Assembly (NCBI RefSeq): GCF_002890915.1
Contig: NZ_POUT01000003.1
Location: forward strand, 248,001 to 312,000
Direction of reading: 5' to 3'
Source of the DNA: Stutzerimonas stutzeri
GTDB lineage: Bacteria > Pseudomonadota > Gammaproteobacteria > Pseudomonadales > Pseudomonadaceae
DNA length: 64,000 nucleotides
The translations under genes were made by a program, and so were the position numbers. Below, in pieces: positions 11,168 to 54,712 of this stretch. Numbering within the stretch: position 1 is the stretch's first letter; every line of letters starts with the position of its first letter. Under the pieces are notes generated by a model. The model had not been told where the DNA came from and searched no databases. It saw only the letters and a list, made by a program, of their open reading frames with translations.

Positions 11168-11286
11168 CGTAGGTTGGCGCTGAGGCGCGGGGCGCTGTGG
11201 TGCGGCTCATGGCGCTGGCTTCAGGGATGAGGCAATGGGCAGCGCTCGGCGCCGCGCCATGCCTCGTGCCTCAGCGCCAACCTACG
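11168..11286. repeat. 119-bp element with 19-bp perfect terminal inverted repeats
   Basis: Starts CGTAGGTTGGCGCTGAGGC and ends with its exact reverse complement. It contains no reading frame of note. The same CGTAGGTTGG end appears at 49387-49607 and in part at 42433. The right end overlaps the last codon of the convergent channel gene and supplies its stop. Confidence 0.75.
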
Positions 11287-18004: not shown

Positions 18005-19585
18005 ATGTCTCATCCTGACATTCACGCCCACCGCATCCTGATCCTCGACTTCGGTTCGCAATACACCCAATTGATCGCCCGCCGTGTGCGCGAGATCGGC
18101 GTCTACTGCGAGCTGCACCCATGGGACATGAGCGAAGAGGATATCCGTGCCTTCGCTCCGCGCGGCATCATCCTCGCCGGTGGCCCGGAGTCGGTCCATG
18201 AGCAAGGCAGCCCGCGCGCGCCGCAGGTGGTGTTCGACCTCGGCGTGCCGCTGTTCGGTATCTGCTATGGCATGCAGACCATGGCCGAGCAGCTCGGCGG
18301 CAAGGTACAGGGCTCGGATATCCGCGAGTTCGGCTATGCGCGCGTCGACCTGGTCGGCAAGTCGAAGCTGTTCGACGGCATCGAGGACCACATGGACGAC
18401 GACGGCGTGTTCGGCCTCGACGTCTGGATGAGCCATGGCGACAAGGTCACCGAGATTCCGGCCGGCTTCCACATCCTCGCCAGCACGCCGAGCTGCGCGA
18501 TCGCCTCCATGGGCGACGACACCCGCGGCTACTACGGCGTGCAGTTCCACCCGGAAGTGACCCACACCCGCCAGGGCGGGCGCATCCTGTCGCGCTTCGC
18601 CCTGGAAATCTGCGGCTGCGAGGCGCTGTGGACGCCATCCAACATCGTCGAGGACGCTATCGCTCAGGTGCGCGCCCAGGTCGGCAATGCCAACGTGCTG
18701 CTCGGCCTTTCCGGCGGGGTGGATTCCTCGGTGGTCGCCGCATTGCTGCACAAGGCCATCGGCGACCAGTTGACCTGCGTGTTCGTCGACAACGGCCTGC
18801 TGCGCCTGCACGAGGGCGACCAGGTGATGGCCATGTTCGCCGAGAACATGGGCGTCAAGGTGATCCGCGCCGATGCCGAGGCGCAGTTCCTCGCCAACCT
18901 GGCCGGCGAAGCCGACCCGGAGAAGAAGCGCAAGATCATCGGCCGCACCTTCATCGACGTGTTCGACGCCCAGGCCAGCAAGCTGGAGAACATCAAGTTC
19001 CTCGCCCAGGGCACCATCTACCCGGACGTCATCGAGTCGGCCGGCGCCAAGAGCGGCAAGGCCCACGTGATCAAGTCGCACCACAACGTCGGCGGCCTGC
19101 CGGAAGAAATGAACCTGCAACTGGTCGAGCCGCTGCGCGAGCTGTTCAAGGACGAGGTGCGCAAGATCGGCCTGGAACTGGGCCTGCCCTACGACATGGT
19201 CTACCGCCACCCCTTCCCGGGCCCGGGCCTGGGCGTGCGCATCCTCGGCGAGGTGAAGAAGGAATACGCCGACCTGCTGCGCCGTGCCGACCACATCTTC
19301 ATCGAGGAACTGCGCAACTTCGACTGGTACCACAAGACCAGCCAGGCCTTCGTGGTGTTCCAGCCGGTGAAATCGGTCGGTGTGGTCGGCGACGGCCGCC
19401 GCTACGCCTGGGTCGTCGCCCTGCGCGCGGTGGAAACCATCGACTTCATGACCGCGCGTTGGGCGCACCTGCCCTACGAGCTGCTGGAGAAGGTCTCCAA
19501 CCGTATCATCAACGAGATCGAAGGCATCTCCCGCGTCACCTACGACGTGTCGAGCAAACCGCCGGCGACCATCGAGTGGGAATGA
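18005..19585 (+). CDS. guaA: GMP synthase (glutamine-hydrolysing)
   Basis: 526 aa. The N-terminal class I amidotransferase domain has nucleophile C87 in GICYGMQT and the H182/E184 pair in QFHPEVTHT. The ATP-pyrophosphatase P-loop SGGVDSS is at 236-242, and the C-terminal dimerisation domain ends [14 protein letters not shown]. It converts XMP to GMP. AAGGAAAG lies upstream of the start. The last codons (GAG TGG GAA TGA) form the left attachment site of the integrative element; the reading frame is intact because the junction preserves the coding sequence. Confidence 0.97.
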
Positions 19586-19588
19586 TCC
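19574..19588 (+). other. attL
   Basis: GAGTGGGAATGATCC: the last three sense codons and stop of guaA plus three bases. Matches the attR copy at 31970 with one difference. Confidence 0.8.
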
Positions 19589-19750: not shown

Positions 19751-19791
19751 TTTACCGCCAGCCCCCTGTGACGGTAAACGGTGACGGTAGA
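19751..19791. promoter_or_regulatory. Candidate integrase arm-type sites
   Basis: TTTACCG (19751, inverted), GACGGTAAA (19770) and GACGGTAGA (19783) cluster just before the integrase start, and a further TTTACCGTT lies at 19599. The same GACGGTAAA occurs at 31886 near attR. Their spacing and placement on both sides suit arm-binding sites, and they could also bind a regulator of int. Confidence 0.4.
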
Positions 19792-19801
19792 GGGCGCGAA
19801 C

Positions 19802-21070
19802 GTGCTGACGGATACGAAACTCAAGAGCCTTAAGGGCCGGGAGAAGGCTTACAAGGTGGCGGACCGCGAAGGGCTTTACGTGGTCGTGTCGCCCAAGGGC
19901 ACCGTGACCTTCCGGTACGACTACCGGATCGCCGGACGGCGCGAGACGCTGACCATTGGGCGCTACGGGGCGGACGCTATGTCGCTCGCCGAGGCGCGCG
20001 AGGAGCTGACCCTGGCGCGCAAGCTGGTGCATGACGGTATTTCTCCAGCCCAGCAGAAGGCCGAGGGGAAGAAGGCCACCAGCGATATCGACACGTTCGA
20101 GGCGCATGCCGGTATCTGGCTGCGCGACGCCGACCTGGCCGAGAGCACCGCAGCTATGCGCAAGAGCATCCTCGACCGGGACGTGCTGGCCGAGCTGGGC
20201 AAGCGCCGAATGGACGAGATCAAGCCGTCGCACGTCATCGCCCTGTGCGACAAGATCAAGGGGCGAGGGGCGCCGGCCACGGCGGTGCACGCCCGCGAAA
20301 TCATCCAGCAGATTTACCGTCACGCCAGCGGGCGCGGCCTGGACCTAGAGAACCCCGCCGAGGCGGTCAAGTCGTCCAGCATCGCCACCTTCAAGCCGCG
20401 CGAGCGTGCACTGGCGCCGGACGAGATCCGCCGCTTCTTGGTGGCGCTGGATGGCTTGGGCGGCACTATGCCCATGTTCAAGCTGGCGCTGCGCGCGATC
20501 CTGCTGACGATGTGCCGCAAGGGCGAGATCATCCATGCGAAGTGGAACGAGGTCGACTTCGCCGGCGCGGTTTGGACCATCCCAGCGGCGCGGATGAAGG
20601 CCGGCAGGGCGCACCGCATCTACCTGAGCCGGCAGATGATCGACCTTCTGGTCGCGCTCAAGGCGTGGGCAGGGAGCAGCCCCTACGTGCTGCCCGGTCG
20701 GTATGAGACGGACCAGCCGATCAGCGACGCCACGCTGAACCGAGTCATTACCCTGACCCTCAAGAAGCTGGAGAAGGACGGCGACCCGATGCCGCCGTTT
20801 ACCGTCCACGACCTGCGGCGCACCGGCTCGACGCTGCTGCACGAGGCGGGCTTCAATTCCGACTGGATCGAGAAGTGCCTGGCGCACGAGCAGAAGTCTG
20901 TGCGGGCGATCTACAACAAGGCGCAGTTCGCCGGCCAGCGCCGCGTCATGCTGCAAGCCTGGGCCGATATGGTCGACGCGTGGGTGCGCGGCGAGAGCGC
21001 GAAGACGATCATCAGCGAGGCCCGAATCGCGGCGATGGAAGCCGCCGACGGTATCGACGGGGATCTGTGA
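19802..21070 (+). CDS. Tyrosine recombinase / P4-type integrase
   Basis: 422 aa from the GTG at 19802 (LTDTKLKSLKGREKAYKVADREGLYV), which matches the usual opening of the DUF4102-containing P4 integrases. An in-frame GTG at 19781 is less likely. The catalytic tetrad region is visible: R239 (LTMCRKGEI), H336 and R339 (VHDLRRTGS), H362 (LAHEQ) and nucleophile Y371 (RAIYNKAQ). It should catalyse insertion at, and with a helper excision from, the guaA 3' end. Its stop overlaps the next start (TGATG). Confidence 0.92.
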   Translation: MLTDTKLKSLKGREKAYKVADREGLYVVVSPKGTVTFRYDYRIAGRRETLTIGRYGADAMSLAEAREELTLARKLVHDGISPAQQKAEGKKATSDIDTFEAHAGIWLRDADLAESTAAMRKSILDRDVLAELGKRRMDEIKPSHVIALCDKIKGRGAPATAVHAREIIQQIYRHASGRGLDLENPAEAVKSSSIATFKPRERALAPDEIRRFLVALDGLGGTMPMFKLALRAILLTMCRKGEIIHAKWNEVDFAGAVWTIPAARMKAGRAHRIYLSRQMIDLLVALKAWAGSSPYVLPGRYETDQPISDATLNRVITLTLKKLEKDGDPMPPFTVHDLRRTGSTLLHEAGFNSDWIEKCLAHEQKSVRAIYNKAQFAGQRRVMLQAWADMVDAWVRGESAKTIISEARIAAMEAADGIDGDL

Positions 21071-22324: not shown

Positions 22325-22534
22325 ATGGAAATCGAGCACATCACCAGCGGCATCGAAGAATACCGCCTGACCTGCGCGGAGTTCGCCGCGCTGAACCGCG
22401 TCAAGCCCGAAACCGTCCGCGAGCGCATTTGCCGGACCGGCTCATATCACGGCGTTCGCCCCCGCAAACTCGCCAGCCGCCGCCTGCTGTTCCCTGCCGT
22501 GCAGGTTGCTCTGGTGCAAGGGGGTGAGGAATGA
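22325..22534 (+). CDS. Small DNA-binding/excisionase-like protein
   Basis: 69 aa. EYRLTCAEFAALNRVKPETVRERICRTGS reads as a helix-turn-helix of the excisionase/MerR-like type, followed by a basic strand (RPRKLASRRLLFPAVQVALVQ) similar to the wing that specifies site recognition. It overlaps the primase-helicase gene by four bases, so it is the first gene of the replication operon and could control it. Confidence 0.6.
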   Translation: MEIEHITSGIEEYRLTCAEFAALNRVKPETVRERICRTGSYHGVRPRKLASRRLLFPAVQVALVQGGEE

Positions 22535-25254
22535 GCGCCGGAAATGAAAACGCCCAACGTGTGACCAGCACGTCGGGCGTCGATACAGCAGAGCAGCTTG
22601 GTGAGAGAACAAGCGTCGACAGTATGGCGGCTGTACAAGAAATGAGCAACCGCCCAGCTGCGAGCACGTCCGACACCCTTGCGGTTCTTCGTCATTCCAA
22701 CCTGCACCTGGCGAAAACCTGGCTGGCCGACGGCGAGATCAGCGCCTACGGCGACGGAAAGCAGTTCAGCCTGGAGCCGGTCGAGGTGGGCGACATTTTC
22801 GGGCTGTCTGAATTGCTGCAGCGCCTGGAGCGCGACAAGCATGCGTGCGTCATACGCGGGCGCTACGTAGGCGACGAACTGGCGAAGGAACGCACCGCGC
22901 CGGAGGACTACAGGCGCGGCAAGGTGCTGCGACGGAAAACGCATTTCGACGACCAGCCGCTGCACTCGGTGCTGATCGAGGTAGACGACTTCGAGCCGAT
23001 CACCGCCGATCCGATCCTCGAGCCGGCGCTGGCGGTCGAGGAGTTCATCCAGAGCAGCCTGCCCGACCCGTTCCTTTGCGCCAGCTACCACTGGCAGCTA
23101 TCGAACAGCGCTGGCTGGCGCAAGAATGTCGGCAAGCTCAAGGTACATATTTGGTTCTGGCTGTCGGAGCCGCGCACGTCTGCCGAGCTGAAAGAGTGGG
23201 CCGGGGCTGTCGGTCTTCCCGCTGACACGTCGGTATTCGACTCAATCCAAGTCCACTACACCAGCGCCCCCGTGTTCCAAGTCGGCGTCTCCGACCCGGT
23301 GCCCGTGCGCAGCGGCTTCGTGCATGGCCTGTGCAGCGACTCGGTAGAGCTGGACATTGAGCCGGCGATCCTCGCGGCGGCTGCTGAGCGTGCGCAACGC
23401 AAGCGGCGCAACCCGCTGGAGCGTACCGGCGAGCACGACGACCTGGCCGAGTACCTGCTGGGGAAGTGGGAGGTGCGCGGCGAAACCCCGGACGGTACCG
23501 GACTGCACATCCGCTGCCCCTTCGACGCTGAGCACACCAGCGACACGGGGCCTTCCTCAACGACCTACTTCCTGAAAGGCACGGGCAGCTTCGAGCGCGG
23601 GCATTTCGTCTGCAAGCACGACCACTGCGCGGGGCGCACCGACGGCGACTTCCTGCATGCGATCGGCTACCTGGGCGACGACTTCGACGATCTGCCCGAG
23701 CCGAGCGAGGAGGAGAAGGCCGAGCAGGAGGCAATCCGCCAGCGCAATGCGGAGCGCGCCGAGCGCATCGCAGAGGCTGCTGTCGAGCGTGCCCGATTCG
23801 AGGGTGGCCGTGACGCCCTGGAAGCCGAACGGCGGGAGTACCAGAAGCGGGAGAACGAGAAGATCGGCGAGGGCGAGCACAAGATCCCCGTGGCCGAGCT
23901 GGTCACGCTGGAGGCGGCGATCAACCGCTTCGTGTTCCTGGCCGATGGCTCGCGCGTGGCCGACGTGTTCAACCCGCACTATGACCTGGCCTTCGCCGAC
24001 TGGGCCGCAGCGCATGCCGCATCGGTCGAGACTTTCCCGCAGCCCGACAAGGAACTGGCCAACGGCAAGACCAAGAAAATGCCCGACAAGATTGTCGCGG
24101 TGAGCGAGTTGTGGCGCGCATCACCCCGGCGCAAGACCGCCGTGTGCCGGACGTTCAAGGCTGGCGGTGCGCTGGTGCTGCCCGACCCGGAGGGGCGCAT
24201 GGCGCTCAACACTTGGCGCCCGTTCGACCGTAGCCTGGCAGTGGATGACCTGCAGGTGGCTGGCGTGGACCTGTTCGTCGAGCACGTCAACTTCCTGTTC
24301 GGCGCCGATGCTGACCGCTTCCTCGACTGGCTTGCCCACATCGAGCAGCGCCCAGGCGAGCTACCACACACCGGATGGCTGCACATCGCCAAGAACTTCG
24401 GCATGGGCCGCAACTGGCTGTCGTCGGTACTGGCTCGCGTGTGGGCCGGCGCCGTGGCCGTCAACCTGGATCTGGTCGGCATGCTGCGCACCGGTTTCAA
24501 CGGGCGCCTGTCGCGCAAGGTGCTGGCGGTGGTCGACGAGATTCGCGAGGGCGGGCGGGATTCGCAGTGGGAGCACAGCGAGAAGCTGAAAAGCACCATC
24601 ACTGAGGAAACCCGCGTCATCAACCCGAAGTTCGGGCGCCAGTCCGTTGAGTTCAACGCTTGCCGCTGGCTGATGTTCTCGAATCACCTGTCGGCGATCC
24701 CGCTGGAGAGTGGCGACCGGCGCGTCGAGGTCGTGGCGACCGAAGCCGCACCGAGGGGCGCGGACTACTACGCCAAGCTGTACGCCGCTTTGAAGTCGCC
24801 GCAGTTCATCGCCGCCGTGGCTGCGTTCCTTGGCAGTCGTGACCTGAGCCGCTTCAACCCCGGCGCGCACGCCGCGAACACCGAGGCGAAGAAAGCCGCG
24901 ACGAAAGCCAGCCAGTCGCCGATGGCCGAGGCGTGCCAGATGCTAATTGACCACTGGCCCGCCGACGTCATCACTGCGGCGCAACTGTTCGAGGTGTTGA
25001 CGGGCCAGTCGGACGGCTCGGTCTCGTCCGCGCATCGCCGGACCCTGGAGCAGTTCGGCATCGAGGCGCTACCCAAGCCGGTGAAGGTCAACGGCAAGGC
25101 CGTGCGCGTGTCGGCGGTGCGGAACAAAGGGCGGTGGAAGGCCGAGGCGGACCCGGCAGCAATCCGGGGGGAGTTGGCCAAGGTCGAGTTGGACCCCCTC
25201 GATATGCACTGCGCGCGGGACTACCTACTGGATCTGGTGGCCGACAAGGCGTAA
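22531..25254 (+). CDS. Primase-helicase (DUF5906-type, superfamily 3-like)
   Basis: 907 aa. The N-terminal half is a putative primase (SVLIEVDDFEPITADP; YHWQLSNSAG; VGKLKVHIWFWL). It is followed by a zinc-binding-like segment with IRCPFDAEH and FVCKHDHCAG (about 325-370), an acidic coiled coil, and a C-terminal helicase domain. The P-loop region reads FGMGRNWLS (623-630), with arginine where a lysine is usual. VLAVVDEIREGG near 665-675 is a plausible Walker B. Such proteins initiate and drive replication of P4-like satellites. A candidate origin follows directly downstream. Confidence 0.75.
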   Translation: MSAGNENAQRVTSTSGVDTAEQLGERTSVDSMAAVQEMSNRPAASTSDTLAVLRHSNLHLAKTWLADGEISAYGDGKQFSLEPVEVGDIFGLSELLQRLERDKHACVIRGRYVGDELAKERTAPEDYRRGKVLRRKTHFDDQPLHSVLIEVDDFEPITADPILEPALAVEEFIQSSLPDPFLCASYHWQLSNSAGWRKNVGKLKVHIWFWLSEPRTSAELKEWAGAVGLPADTSVFDSIQVHYTSAPVFQVGVSDPVPVRSGFVHGLCSDSVELDIEPAILAAAAERAQRKRRNPLERTGEHDDLAEYLLGKWEVRGETPDGTGLHIRCPFDAEHTSDTGPSSTTYFLKGTGSFERGHFVCKHDHCAGRTDGDFLHAIGYLGDDFDDLPEPSEEEKAEQEAIRQRNAERAERIAEAAVERARFEGGRDALEAERREYQKRENEKIGEGEHKIPVAELVTLEAAINRFVFLADGSRVADVFNPHYDLAFADWAAAHAASVETFPQPDKELANGKTKKMPDKIVAVSELWRASPRRKTAVCRTFKAGGALVLPDPEGRMALNTWRPFDRSLAVDDLQVAGVDLFVEHVNFLFGADADRFLDWLAHIEQRPGELPHTGWLHIAKNFGMGRNWLSSVLARVWAGAVAVNLDLVGMLRTGFNGRLSRKVLAVVDEIREGGRDSQWEHSEKLKSTITEETRVINPKFGRQSVEFNACRWLMFSNHLSAIPLESGDRRVEVVATEAAPRGADYYAKLYAALKSPQFIAAVAAFLGSRDLSRFNPGAHAANTEAKKAATKASQSPMAEACQMLIDHWPADVITAAQLFEVLTGQSDGSVSSAHRRTLEQFGIEALPKPVKVNGKAVRVSAVRNKGRWKAEADPAAIRGELAKVELDPLDMHCARDYLLDLVADKA

Positions 25255-25283: not shown

Positions 25284-25307
25284 GGCCGCCAGGGATGGCG
25301 GCCTTTT
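25284..25307 (+). terminator. Rho-independent terminator of the replication operon
   Basis: GGCCGCC, loop AGGGAT, GGCGGCC, then TTTT, 30 bp after the primase-helicase stop. Confidence 0.75.
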
Positions 25308-25325: not shown

Positions 25326-25454
25326 GCGGTTACAGTGGTTACAGCGGTTACGCTGGTTTTATATCGGAGCCTGGAAAGAAATTCTCTTTTTTCTTTTAGC
25401 TGGGCTTTATGGAATCAGCGTAACCAGCGTAACCGCTGTAACCGCAACCACCGG
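25326..25454. other. Candidate replication origin with inverted iteron clusters
   Basis: Left cluster: three GGTTAC words and a final GGTT within 25326-25358, in the order GCGGTTACAG, TGGTTACAG, CGGTTACGC. Right cluster (25417-25454): the reverse-complement words, GTAACC three times ending in AACCACC. The 58 bp between them are AT-rich (TTTTTTCTTTTAG). Phased short repeats flanking AT-rich DNA next to a primase-helicase gene are the usual features of a satellite or plasmid origin. No experiment is implied. Confidence 0.6.
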
Positions 25455-25916
25455 AACAGGGCGGATTGCAGAAAATCTCAGGTTCGAGCGCCGCCAGCAC
25501 CGCGCGAAAGCGAAGCGCTTCGCAACGGGCAGTCTGCACATTTCTGCGGAAAACGCAGTTGGTCAAAAAATAACCAATTGCTTCGCCGCACGCGGCTGCC
25601 GGTAGCGTGAGGATGCCGCCAGCGTAACGGCTCCCGCCAATCGCTCATTTCCTATCGCTGCCTATCCGAATCATTGCTTACCAATCATTAACCGGACTCG
25701 GTGCGCCCAGCAGCGGCGCGACATTCAGCGATCCGGCTGGATTCTTTACCGTCAAGTCCGCCGCCCCGGCGCGCCGGTAATTCACTGACCCGCCCTGGCG
25801 CATTTCTTGGTGCGCTTTTCTGGAAGCCCCGAATGGCGCGGCCTCCAGCGGTGCACGTGACTCCTTGAGCAGCCTTTAGCCTGTACGGGTGATTACTAGC
25901 ACTCAGGAACTAGCGA
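25455..25916. other. Non-coding region right of the candidate origin
   Basis: About 460 bp with no gene I can support. It contains palindromes GCGAAGCGCTTCGC (near 25513) and TTGGT...AACCAA around an A-rich centre (near 25560), a TTTACCG word near 25747, and the probable promoter and leader of the second AlpA-like gene (GGAACTAGCG before 25917). It may extend the origin. Confidence 0.5.
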
Positions 25917-26114
25917 ATGGCAACCATCAAGCTCCTTACCTTCTCCGAAGCCGCCGAAGCGGTCGGACTGCACGAATCGACGGTGCGCCGGCTGGTCCAG
26001 CGCGGCGAGTTCGCGGCGCCTTTGATCCTTTCTCCGCGCCGGATCGCGTTCCGCGAGAAGGACGTCGAGGCCTGGCTTAACTCGCGCCCGGTACAGCAAC
26101 CCGACAACCAGTAA
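25917..26114 (+). CDS. Second AlpA-family regulator
   Basis: 65 aa. LLTFSEAAEAVGLHESTVRRLVQRGEFAAP is a helix-turn-helix, followed by SPRRIAFREKDVEAWLNSRP, the typical AlpA wing and C-terminal helix. It begins the rightward late operon (head-like and terminase genes), so it is positioned to control that operon. It is not a close copy of the AlpA-like gene at 21597. Confidence 0.8.
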   Translation: MATIKLLTFSEAAEAVGLHESTVRRLVQRGEFAAPLILSPRRIAFREKDVEAWLNSRPVQQPDNQ

Positions 26115-28674: not shown

Positions 28675-28963
28675 CGGCACCGGCTACGTTCCGACCCGGC
28701 TTGTTGCGCTTGCCTGCAACGCGACGGGGCACCCCGTCGGCGCCAGCCATCCCAACGCGAAACACGACGACACCCTACCGGCCCGAGCGCGCGAGATGCG
28801 CGCCCAGGGCTTGACCTATCGAGCCATCGGCGAGGCCTTGGGCGTGAGCGAGTGGACCGCGCGGCATTGGGCCGTCGGCGACCGCCGCAACGTGCCGGCC
28901 CAGCGCACGATCATGCGTCGCGTGCCGGTGCAGCAGCATGAGGAGCAGCACATTGACCAGTGA
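28658..28963 (+). CDS. Helix-turn-helix protein, possible packaging or regulatory factor
   Basis: 101 aa from a GTG (RRGNNGTGYVPTRLVALACN). The centre, ARAREMRAQGLTYRAIGEAL followed by GVSEWTARHW, is a Trp-repressor/resolvase-like helix-turn-helix. Such domains occur in small terminase subunits and in regulators. Position two genes before the large terminase favours either role. The start is uncertain because no strong ribosome site is present. Confidence 0.5.
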   Translation: MRRGNNGTGYVPTRLVALACNATGHPVGASHPNAKHDDTLPARAREMRAQGLTYRAIGEALGVSEWTARHWAVGDRRNVPAQRTIMRRVPVQQHEEQHIDQ

Positions 28964-29441
28964 AGTACAGCGCGCCGAGGGCGGGCTATTTATCCCAGGG
29001 CACGCGCCCCGCAGCCCCGGCAGGCCGAAGGGGCAAGGCCCCAGCGCTGCCGAGCAGGTGCGTGCGCTGATCGAGCCGCACAAGGCCGAGATCATTGCGA
29101 AGGCCGTCGAACTGGCCAAGGCCGGCGACCCGCAGTCGCTGCGCCTGTGCCTGGAGCGACTGGCACCAGCGCCACGGCCCGAGGCCGAGAAGGTAGTCGT
29201 GCCGGGGCTGGCCGATGCGCCGACCCTGCAGGCGAAGGCGACAGCCATCCTGGCCGCAGTGGCTGGGGGGCAGATCAGCGCCGAGGCCGGCGACAAGCTG
29301 CTGCGGATGCTGGACACCTACGGAAAGGCCGTGGTGCTGGACGAGCACGAGCGGCGCTTGCGCGCCATCGAGGAAGGCAAGCCCCGCCCCGGTGTGGCGG
29401 CACTGCTGGGCGACCGCTACGACGCGGAGGGCCTGGTATGA
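28953..29441 (+). CDS. DUF5681-like protein, small-terminase candidate
   Basis: 162 aa. An N-terminal basic motif (SPGRPKGQGPSAAEQVRALI) resembles the GRPKG-containing family found next to terminase genes. A helical region with ISAEAGDKLLRMLDTYGKAV follows. The TTG at 28953 is chosen because GAGGAG lies seven bases upstream; the in-frame ATG at 28938 has no such site. ATGA-coupled to the large terminase, which is the usual position of the small subunit. Confidence 0.6.
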   Translation: MTSEVQRAEGGLFIPGHAPRSPGRPKGQGPSAAEQVRALIEPHKAEIIAKAVELAKAGDPQSLRLCLERLAPAPRPEAEKVVVPGLADAPTLQAKATAILAAVAGGQISAEAGDKLLRMLDTYGKAVVLDEHERRLRAIEEGKPRPGVAALLGDRYDAEGLV

Positions 29442-31261
29442 GCGTGCAAGCATTCGAGCGCCGGCTGGCGACCCTGGAGGCGGCGAAGGCATCGGCGGGC
29501 ACGGGCGACCTGCGCCAGCAGATCCTGCACGCCCGTACCGTTGGCCCTGCGCCGACGCACACCCGCGACGAGCTGCAGGAACTGGCCGAGGGCGACAACG
29601 CCACCGGGCGCATTGCGCGCGGCTGGCTGCGCATTGGCTACGTGCTGCCAGGGCGCCCACGTGGGGAGCAGACGCCGGCAATCGACCCTGCCACGGCACT
29701 GCCGGCAATGGCAGGCTACCTGTACGACAAACCGCTAGAGTTTGTGCTGTTCGCCTATGACTGGACGCGCGACCGCTCGCTGGCCGTCGTTGAGCTGCCC
29801 GAACGGTGGAGGCTGATCTACGACAGCGAGCACGGGCCGGATGCGTGGGCGTGCGAGCTGCTGGAGCACTTGGGCGACTCGGTGCGCGCTCGCGGCTTCG
29901 ATGGGCGCAACGCGGTGGACGCGATCCGCGAGGCCATCAGCTCCGGCCACGGTATCGGCAAGTCTGCGATTACCGCCTGGCTGGTCAACTGGATCATGTC
30001 CACCCGTCCGAACGCGCGCGGCGTGGTCACTGCCAACACCGCCCCGCAGCTCGAATCGAAGACCTGGGCGGAGATCGGCAAGTGGACGAAGCGCAGCGTG
30101 TTCTGCGCATGGTTCGACGTGACGACCGGCAAGGGGTCCATGCGGATGACGGCCAAGGGCTTCGCTGAGTCCTGGCGCTGCGATGCGCAGACGTGCCGGG
30201 AGGAGAACAGCGAGAGCTTCGCCGGCCTGCACGCCGCCGACTCGACGGCCTTCTACGTGCTCGACGAGGCGTCCGCTATCCCGGCTGCGATTTGGGAGGT
30301 TCTGGAGGGCGGTTTGACCGACGGCGAGCCGCACGTCTATGCCTTCGGCAACCCGACCCGGAACAGCGGGCGCTTCTTCGAGGCGTTCAACGGCCAGCGG
30401 CACCGCTGGCACAGCCGGCAGATCGACAGCCGCAGTTGCCAGATCACCAACAAGAACCAGATTCAGGAGTGGATCGACGACTACGGCATCGGCTCCGACT
30501 TCGTGAAGGTCCGCGTGCTCGGCCAGTTCCCGAGCGCCAGCAGCCTGCAGTTCATCGGGCGCGAGCTGGTCAACGACGCCCAGGTGCGGGAGGTCGAGAT
30601 CGAGCGTTTCCAGCCCGTCATTCTCGGCGTTGACCCGGCCCGCTTCGGCGGCGACGCCTCGGTCATCTGGACCCGGCAGGGGAGGAACGCGCGGGACATT
30701 CCTCCGATCCGCCTGCAGGGTGTGGACACGATGACCCTGGCCGCGCGAGTGGCTGAGCACGCGAACTTTCTGCGCGGTGCTGGACATAGCGTCATCATCA
30801 ACGTGGACGGCGGCGGCGTGGGCGGCGGAGTGATTGACCGGCTGCGGTCGGTCGGCTTCGACGTGAACGAGGTGCAGTTCGGATCGAGGGCGCTGGACCC
30901 GCGCCGCTGGGCCAACCGGCGCGCGGAGATTTGGGGCCTGATGCGCGAATGGCTGGCCGGTGGTGCGATCCCGCGCGACGAGGGACTGGCGACGGACCTG
31001 TGCGCGGTGGAATACGGCTACAACGCCGCCGACGCGATCCTGCTGGAGAAGAAGGAGTCGATGAAGGCGCGCGGCTTGGCCTCGCCCGACTCGGCGGACG
31101 CCCTGGCCGTCACCTTCGCTGTGCCGGTGGCGCTGACCGTGCCGGGGCAGGAGCATCTGGAGCGGAACGACCAGCGCCGCGAGTACAACCCGTATGCGAG
31201 CACGCCGCGCGGCGACAAGCGCCGAGGCTACGATCCACTCGGCGCCCTGGGGCGTAGGTAA
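29438..31261 (+). CDS. Phage terminase large subunit
   Basis: 607 aa. A Walker A SGHGIGKS lies at 169-176 and a Walker B FYVLDE at 272-277, with a coupling motif region in YAFGNPTRNSGRFFEAF. The nuclease domain begins ILGVDPARFGGDASVIW (D399), continues with INVDGGGVGGGVIDRL, and ends SPDSADALAVTF. All ATPase and RNase H-like nuclease acidic residues appear intact, so DNA translocation and cleavage activity is likely. An unusual 90-residue N-terminal extension (GDNATGRIARGWLRIGYVLP) precedes the ATPase. This is the packaging motor of the element. Confidence 0.9.
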   Translation: MSVQAFERRLATLEAAKASAGTGDLRQQILHARTVGPAPTHTRDELQELAEGDNATGRIARGWLRIGYVLPGRPRGEQTPAIDPATALPAMAGYLYDKPLEFVLFAYDWTRDRSLAVVELPERWRLIYDSEHGPDAWACELLEHLGDSVRARGFDGRNAVDAIREAISSGHGIGKSAITAWLVNWIMSTRPNARGVVTANTAPQLESKTWAEIGKWTKRSVFCAWFDVTTGKGSMRMTAKGFAESWRCDAQTCREENSESFAGLHAADSTAFYVLDEASAIPAAIWEVLEGGLTDGEPHVYAFGNPTRNSGRFFEAFNGQRHRWHSRQIDSRSCQITNKNQIQEWIDDYGIGSDFVKVRVLGQFPSASSLQFIGRELVNDAQVREVEIERFQPVILGVDPARFGGDASVIWTRQGRNARDIPPIRLQGVDTMTLAARVAEHANFLRGAGHSVIINVDGGGVGGGVIDRLRSVGFDVNEVQFGSRALDPRRWANRRAEIWGLMREWLAGGAIPRDEGLATDLCAVEYGYNAADAILLEKKESMKARGLASPDSADALAVTFAVPVALTVPGQEHLERNDQRREYNPYASTPRGDKRRGYDPLGALGRR

Positions 31262-31894: not shown

Positions 31895-31969
31895 TATGAC
31901 GCCTGTTCTCAAGGGGCTTGAGCTGGAGGCCCAGCATTTATGCGGTTTACGGCCTTCTCGTTGATAATT

Positions 31970-31984
31970 GAGTGGGAGTGATCC
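31970..31984 (+). other. attR
   Basis: GAGTGGGAGTGATCC. Preceded by ATT, it still spells Ile-Glu-Trp-Glu-stop, the C-terminus of GuaA, with one silent change (GAG for GAA). This is a guaA remnant at the right junction. Confidence 0.8.
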
Positions 31985-49357: not shown

Positions 49358-49386
49358 CAGCTCGGCATACTGCTAGCGGCCAGCCC

Positions 49387-49607
49387 CGTAGGTTGGGTTG
49401 AGCCGCGTAGCGGCGAAGCTCGACGTCGTACGGGCTCAAGGCTGTGCACAGGCATTTCCCGTGGGAACGCCATGGCGGATGTGCCACCTGATGGTCCGCC
49501 ATGTTGGGCTTCGCTTTGCTCAACCCAACCTACGGACGCTTCGACGGCTGGGAGGGTGGCCGCCGGACCGTAGGTTGGGTTGAGCCGCGTAGCGGCGAAG
49601 CCCAACA
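49387..49607. repeat. CGTAGGTTGGGTTGAG repeat cluster, MITE-like
   Basis: CGTAGGTTGGGTTGAG at 49387-49402, its inverse at 49519-49534 and a direct copy at 49569-49584. The first two bound a 148-bp segment as terminal inverted repeats that extend with GCGAAGC blocks. No gene lies here. The same end sequence occurs at 11168-11286. Confidence 0.65.
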
Positions 49608-54263: not shown

Positions 54264-54339
<76 letters not shown>

Positions 54340-54390
54340 ATCTCGATCGCCACACCGGTCGCTTCGATCGGTCGCCTTTGAAGGGCTTGC

Positions 54391-54466
54391 GTCCCCTTCG
54401 TCTAGTGGCCTAGGACACCGCCCTTTCACGGCGGTAACAGGGGTTCGAGTCCCCTAGGGGACGCCA
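54391..54466 (+). tRNA. tRNA-Glu (TTC), copy 1
   Basis: 76 nt, GTCCCCTTCGTCTAGTGGCC to encoded CCA. Anticodon loop CTTTCAC in stem CCGCC/GGCGG gives TTC. Identical to the copy at 54637. Confidence 0.97.
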
Positions 54467-54515
54467 CTATTTCGCGATGCGTACTGCGCATCGCACGTCG
54501 CGAGACGCTAAATCC

Positions 54516-54591
<76 letters not shown>

Positions 54592-54636
54592 ATTTCCAGC
54601 GATCTGCAGAAGCATTGCGGTTCGTACGAAGGTTTC

Positions 54637-54712
54637 GTCCCCTTCGTCTAGTGGCCTAGGACACCGCCCTTTCACGGCGGTAACAGGGGTTCGAGTCCCC
54701 TAGGGGACGCCA
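54637..54712 (+). tRNA. tRNA-Glu (TTC), copy 2
   Basis: Same sequence as copy 1, 246 bp downstream of it. Last of the four tRNAs, followed by the terminator. Confidence 0.97.

Follow-up and report, generated by a model that had tools for sequence, protein, structure and literature searches.

The window analysed here, a stretch of 64,000 nucleotides of Stutzerimonas stutzeri DNA, carries a 12.4-kb island at guaA (18005-19585 by Pfam). The left attachment core, ATCGAGTGGGAATGATCC (19571-19588, plus strand), lies at the 3' end of guaA, and the right one, ATTGAGTGGGAGTGATCC (31967-31984, plus strand), marks the right end of the element. Exact att repeats of 14 nt were searched for and not found; the cores are imperfect and were located by eye and by comparison with a genome of another species of the genus (G164), in which the same island of 12,408 bp is present at guaA with six differences. 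Identity with G164, from which the left boundary was also taken, ends at 31983, where an att-like copy of the guaA end lies. That two species share the island almost unchanged, with different right flanks, suggests recent mobility, and its size is that of a satellite. Behind guaA follow, with all assigned genes on the plus strand, a tyrosine integrase (19781-21070; Pfam Phage_integrase, 9.4e-19, plus an arm-binding domain), a primase-helicase of 907 aa (22531-25254), the repeats considered below, an AlpA/excisionase-like helix-turn-helix protein of 65 aa (25917-26114; Pfam HTH_17, 2.1e-12, and Phage_AlpA, 1.7e-5; TIGR01764), a weak endonuclease match, a possible small terminase subunit (28938-29441; weakly DUF5681-like, with phrog_9747 at 5e-5 and DUF5681 below the cut-off) and a large terminase subunit (29147-31261, true start uncertain; phrog_2, 2.2e-41). 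Beyond the right end of the island the host flank consists of ordinary metabolic genes. The host part of the window also contains dispersed inverted repeats around CGTAGGTTGG (11168-11286 and 49386-49585; perfect arms of 18-19 nt) and two tandem tRNA-Ala(GGC)/tRNA-Glu(TTC) pairs (54264-54712).

The primase-helicase gene stops at 25254 and is followed by a terminator-like hairpin (25284-25307, plus strand; GGCCGCC-AGGGAT-GGCGGCC-TTTT, read from the sequence), in the position that t-alpha has in P4. With only four T, this hairpin was not listed by a consensus terminator scan. The first GGTTAC word starts at 25328, i.e., immediately 3' of the gene, as in PICI-type origins. Three words, GGTTACAGT, GGTTACAGC and GGTTACGCT, start at 25328, 25337 and 25346 in exact 9-bp steps and form a left cluster of three GGTTACnnn iterons (25328-25351, plus strand), with a degenerate fourth copy, GGTTTT, at 25355. 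The right cluster (25420-25443, minus strand) mirrors it, with GTAACC at 25420, 25429 and 25438 and a degenerate fourth copy, GGTTGC, at 25444-25449. The original prediction, in which two clusters of three words in opposite orientation face each other across an AT-rich core directly downstream of the primase-helicase terminator, was thus accurate in its plan. Its figure of about 58 AT-rich bases is roughly right once the degenerate fourth copies are included, whereas the exact words are 68 nt apart. Of the further repeats that it expected to run on, those with GGTT ends are weak, namely a single GGTTGC at 25444 and a single CGTTAC at 25624 (both on the minus strand), and no CCGG ends were found.

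The 68 nt between the exact words (25352-25419), the proposed melting region, have a GC content of 40% as compared with 65.7% for the window, and only 0.3% of 68-bp windows are equally AT-rich. Together the two clusters form a perfect inverted repeat of 22 nt (25337-25358 and 25422-25443) around a 63-nt loop, which is the longest with a loop of 20-200 nt in the whole 64 kb and was reached by no shuffle. The words might also have been common chance repeats of the chromosome. However, all four occurrences of the double word GGTTACNNNGGTTAC in the 4.77-Mb genome fall within the 25328-25443 segment, and the control read backward is absent; within the island, the exact GGTTAC words are the six of the two clusters and one more at 26111. 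A chance origin of the repeats was ruled out by this uniqueness in the genome, together with the word controls, the shuffles and the window-wide ranking of inverted repeats. An attachment site was rejected as well, the repeats lying about 5.8 kb inside the element.

The segment 25328-25443 is very probably the replication origin of the satellite-like island, used by the island's own primase-helicase. The proposal of an origin with its own initiator on both arms, made initially from the letters of this DNA, is supported by the analysis and agrees with the comparative evidence given below. A regulatory operator, e.g., of AlpA, or a part of a terminator is very hard to credit. The site does have the primase gene on one side and alpA on the other, with alpA about 470 bp further downstream, and a weak hairpin within the left arm was called by the terminator scan, but mirrored clusters that flank an AT-rich core at a distance of 60-80 bp are ill-suited to an operator, and the same arrays stand behind helicase genes in plasmids and phages that have no annotated alpA neighbour. 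Moreover, no sigma-70-like promoter was found nearby and the segment had no Rfam match, which also eliminated an RNA element as a candidate.

The proposed initiator matches Pfam DUF5906 (2.9e-13) and, in residues 47-408, the PHROG DNA primase family (4.6e-99). For the N-terminal primase part a PDB search gave no match, so that only the PHROG match applies to it. The initiator also has a PDB profile match to 7ola (2.4e-5). The remainder was covered by an alignment-based AF2 model (residues 440-907; 24 sequences; mean pLDDT 90). The closest solved folds to this helicase part are the C-terminal region or ring of NrS-1 polymerase (Z 25.8) and the SaPI5 primase-helicase (Z 16.4), with the D5-type helicases of large DNA viruses as further neighbours. 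The Walker A motif in this clade of helicases reads GxGRN or GxGRS (24382-24429, residues about 618-633; L038, L046, L167-L184), its arginine occupying the position of the catalytic lysine in other SF3 helicases. From the order of helices and a final beta-hairpin in the model, a C-terminal winged-helix domain is predicted at residues about 785-871 (24883-25143, plus strand). The C-terminal domain of SaPI Rep and of SCCmec Cch2 binds iterons (PMC7581432), and the iteron-binding domain of the island protein is most likely this winged helix rather than the N-terminal primase domain, which the original prediction had put forward for a gel shift. Similar repeats also stand behind the genes of three related helicases (L011, L012 and L013) that lack the N-terminal primase part, which would place the recognition determinant in the helicase or C-terminal part. 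The same three loci bear on the idea that the words mark starts of primer synthesis rather than duplex sites of the helicase. NrS-1 polymerase starts at TTTGGTTA, which contains GGTTA (PMC8718748), and NrS-1 helix-bundle domains are present in 4 of the 17 pattern-linked proteins. However, clusters behind helicases that lack the primase part, and the fact that priming needs no mirrored tandem arrays of three, make primase template sites a very unlikely explanation.

When the repeats were sought in related elements, the words proved to be kept in the nearest of the relatives found in other genera, a Dechloromonas contig (L038) that was fetched by the DNA pattern alone and encodes a helicase 57% identical over 608 aa; all words are kept and the core has diverged. 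A viral contig (L046, 36% identity) has GGTTACgag repeats, and two autonomous plasmids of 8.9 kb have GGTTAC/GTAACC clusters behind helicases of 40.8% and 32.2% identity. In other plasmids the words are of GGTTCC and TGTCTC types, those of L013 having been read by eye and not being significant by the inverted-repeat score. Protein searches of the viral contigs found no relatives with the window primase as query and 18 with the Dechloromonas relative. Behind the genes of these phage homologs (37-45% identity), a mirror repeat that outscores every shuffle is present at 16 of the 18 loci, some of which are near-identical to one another, and in 15 cases it lies within 21 nt of the stop. Their words, GAACACA, GGACACA, GACACGCG, CTCAGAAC and more, have changed together in both arms. 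Judged from these sequences, the architecture is kept across relatives while the word evolves. Among the non-mobilizable circular plasmids of 8.7-8.9 kb with a DUF5906 helicase (L009, L011, L012, L013 and L010), several genes of some members are phage-like (major capsid protein, a tape-measure annotation, recombinases), and CP077066.1 (17,382 bp) resembles two such units joined as a dimer.

A blind pattern of the DNA words alone, GGTTACNNNGGTTACN{50,80}GTAACCNNNGTAACC, was matched at 13 loci in genome contigs and 20 in viral contigs, as compared with none for the word read backward and one for another permutation of its letters in the viral contigs. Outward-facing GGTTAC arrangements numbered 45, and a GGTGAC word predicted from a phage relative (L014) gave 32 loci. 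Among 17 large ORFs near the pattern loci, DUF5906 was matched by 13, D5_N by 7 and VapE-like families by 4 (the families overlap), and 23 genes flanking the outward-facing set gave 11 matches each to VapE and DUF5906. In all three sets the flanking ORFs had mostly DUF5906, D5_N, VapE-like and primase domains, more weakly so in the GGTGAC set, and the large ORFs had their 3' end toward the repeats rather than the other orientation at 19 vs. 5, 23 vs. 0 and 18 vs. 5 loci. Some pattern loci (e.g., L037, L045 and L047) have no recognised helicase neighbour, and an AcrB-type transporter is among the 17 neighbours scanned. In seven phage contigs (L066, L071, L072, L082, L090, L104 and L107), GGTTAC clusters that face outward flank a GC-neutral core, with no helicase-sized ORF nearby.

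DUF5906 loci were also sampled regardless of repeats. For mirrors the inverted-repeat score was used, since a strict detector of exact 6-mer mirrors overlooks imperfect arms. A mirror repeat beating all shuffles was present in 15 of the 24 evaluable loci, the window included, as compared with 5 of 120 for genes other than DUF5906. For about a third of the sampled DUF5906 genes, the first 400 bp contained no significant mirror, and the link is therefore not universal. The cores between mirrored iterons in GC-rich hosts often carry alternating purine-pyrimidine tracts (CGCGTGTGCGCG...; e.g., L123, L124, L125, L130, L131, L144, L145 and L161); tracts of at least 12 nt occur in 12 of 32 GGTGAC cores (0.5 expected) and in 4 of 33 GGTTAC cores (0.4 expected), and possibly represent Z-DNA-prone melting elements.

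We propose that the island would first be excised and that the C-terminal winged helix of the primase-helicase would then bind the 9-bp GGTTACnnn iterons on both arms. One SF3-type hexamer could assemble per arm, and the two, facing each other, would melt the AT-rich core and prime bidirectional copying. The dyad symmetry of the arms, and partly that of the cores, is consistent with two hexamers; extra dyad symmetry was present in the cores of 23 of 66 related loci (z below -2). The same symmetry could, on the other hand, be taken as a sign that the protein recognises an extruded cruciform or stem-loop (22-nt stem, 63-nt loop), the words being incidental. A single strand of the repeat segment does fold as one long hairpin (z -9.1), and such a reading has been proposed for the Sulfolobus plasmid pRN1, whose origin was described as a structure without iterons and requires both its 21-nt stem and its 58-nt loop to be intact (PMC4234260). 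We regard it as improbable here. The exact 9-bp word steps inside one arm are superfluous for a hairpin, and in two of the plasmids (L009 and L012) the word is retained in many copies of either orientation, which offer little continuous pairing. Furthermore, when the pRN1 arms (L195:5085-5190) were read again, they resolved into TGTCCA TAG TGTCCA and its mirror, so that the stem itself consists of words at a 9-bp step.

With recognition of the words by the winged helix as the preferred reading, the comparison leans towards the view that mirror-iteron origins, with word steps of about 9 bp and a melting core directly behind the gene, are general for the D5/DUF5906/VapE-type SF3 primase-helicases of satellites, plasmids, phages and archaeal plasmids and are not private to PICIs. 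The word would then be a fast-evolving specificity code for the C-terminal winged helix, with GGTTAC and GGTGAC recurring across phyla; the pRN1 stem-loop would be the same thing, and Z-prone alternating purine-pyrimidine tracts would replace AT-richness in GC-rich hosts. As far as can be judged from sequence comparison, this generality is supported but not complete, because of the DUF5906 genes without a significant mirror and because two archaeal pattern loci (L027 and L039) have no confirmed helicase neighbour. It may also be partly known already, as most subscription literature lay outside the search. For the satellite-like island, the result is an experimentally addressable candidate origin of about 115 bp. 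Since the sequence downstream of each helicase gene shows the repeats directly, an initiator could be assigned to its origin in many uncultured elements, and such natural pairs could serve to derive the code by which a winged helix recognises its word.

Among known systems, the segment 25328-25443 is filed, by its sequence, with the PICI/P4-crr kind of origin. As in the island, PICI and SaPI origins lie directly 3' of pri-rep and have two sets of iterons around an AT-rich region; SaPI Rep binds through its C-terminal domain, and the SaPI5 primase-helicase shares its fold with the island protein. Marks of a PICI-type origin, among them its position and an initiator related to SaPI/PICI Rep with a predicted C-terminal DNA-binding domain, are found here, as is the gene plan of the whole element (integrase, AlpA, pri-rep, putative ori, a specific att site and a single direction of transcription). 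The experimentally tested origin of the PICI EcCICFT073 has the same plan, its region reading CTGTCTACC/GGTAGACAG words, but the word is GGTAGAC there and GGTTAC in the island. Unlike a PICI, the island sits in guaA and has its own large terminase gene, and it was not filed as one because such a gene is absent from the quoted PICI gene plan. P4 is likewise a satellite (11.6 kb) with an integrase and an AlpA-like regulator, and at its crr the alpha gene and terminator are followed by mirrored clusters of GGTGAAC words around an AT-rich core (type I iterons as annotated in the P4 record). However, the unit is present twice in P4 crr, with a separate ori1 4.5 kb away, and only once in the island, so that the likeness does not extend to the whole element; P4 alpha, moreover, has a Toprim primase according to a published paper, in which it differs from the island protein. 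The pRN1 origin, though archaeal, has a comparable layout, its 21-nt arms and AT-rich loop lying 54 bp behind a primase-SF3-winged-helix gene and its terminator. NrS-1 phage polymerase, nearest to the helicase part in fold, differs in that its recognition is of a single-stranded template by the primase/helix-bundle part, whereas duplex sites are proposed for the island. In SCCmec the iterons (AAGTG) likewise follow the helicase gene closely, and the C-terminal domain of Cch2 binds them in isolation (PMC7581432), but this binding needs direct repeats only and the primase-polymerase is separate. This kind of origin is therefore known, and what goes beyond the PICI paper (Fillol-Salom et al.) is its wider reach.
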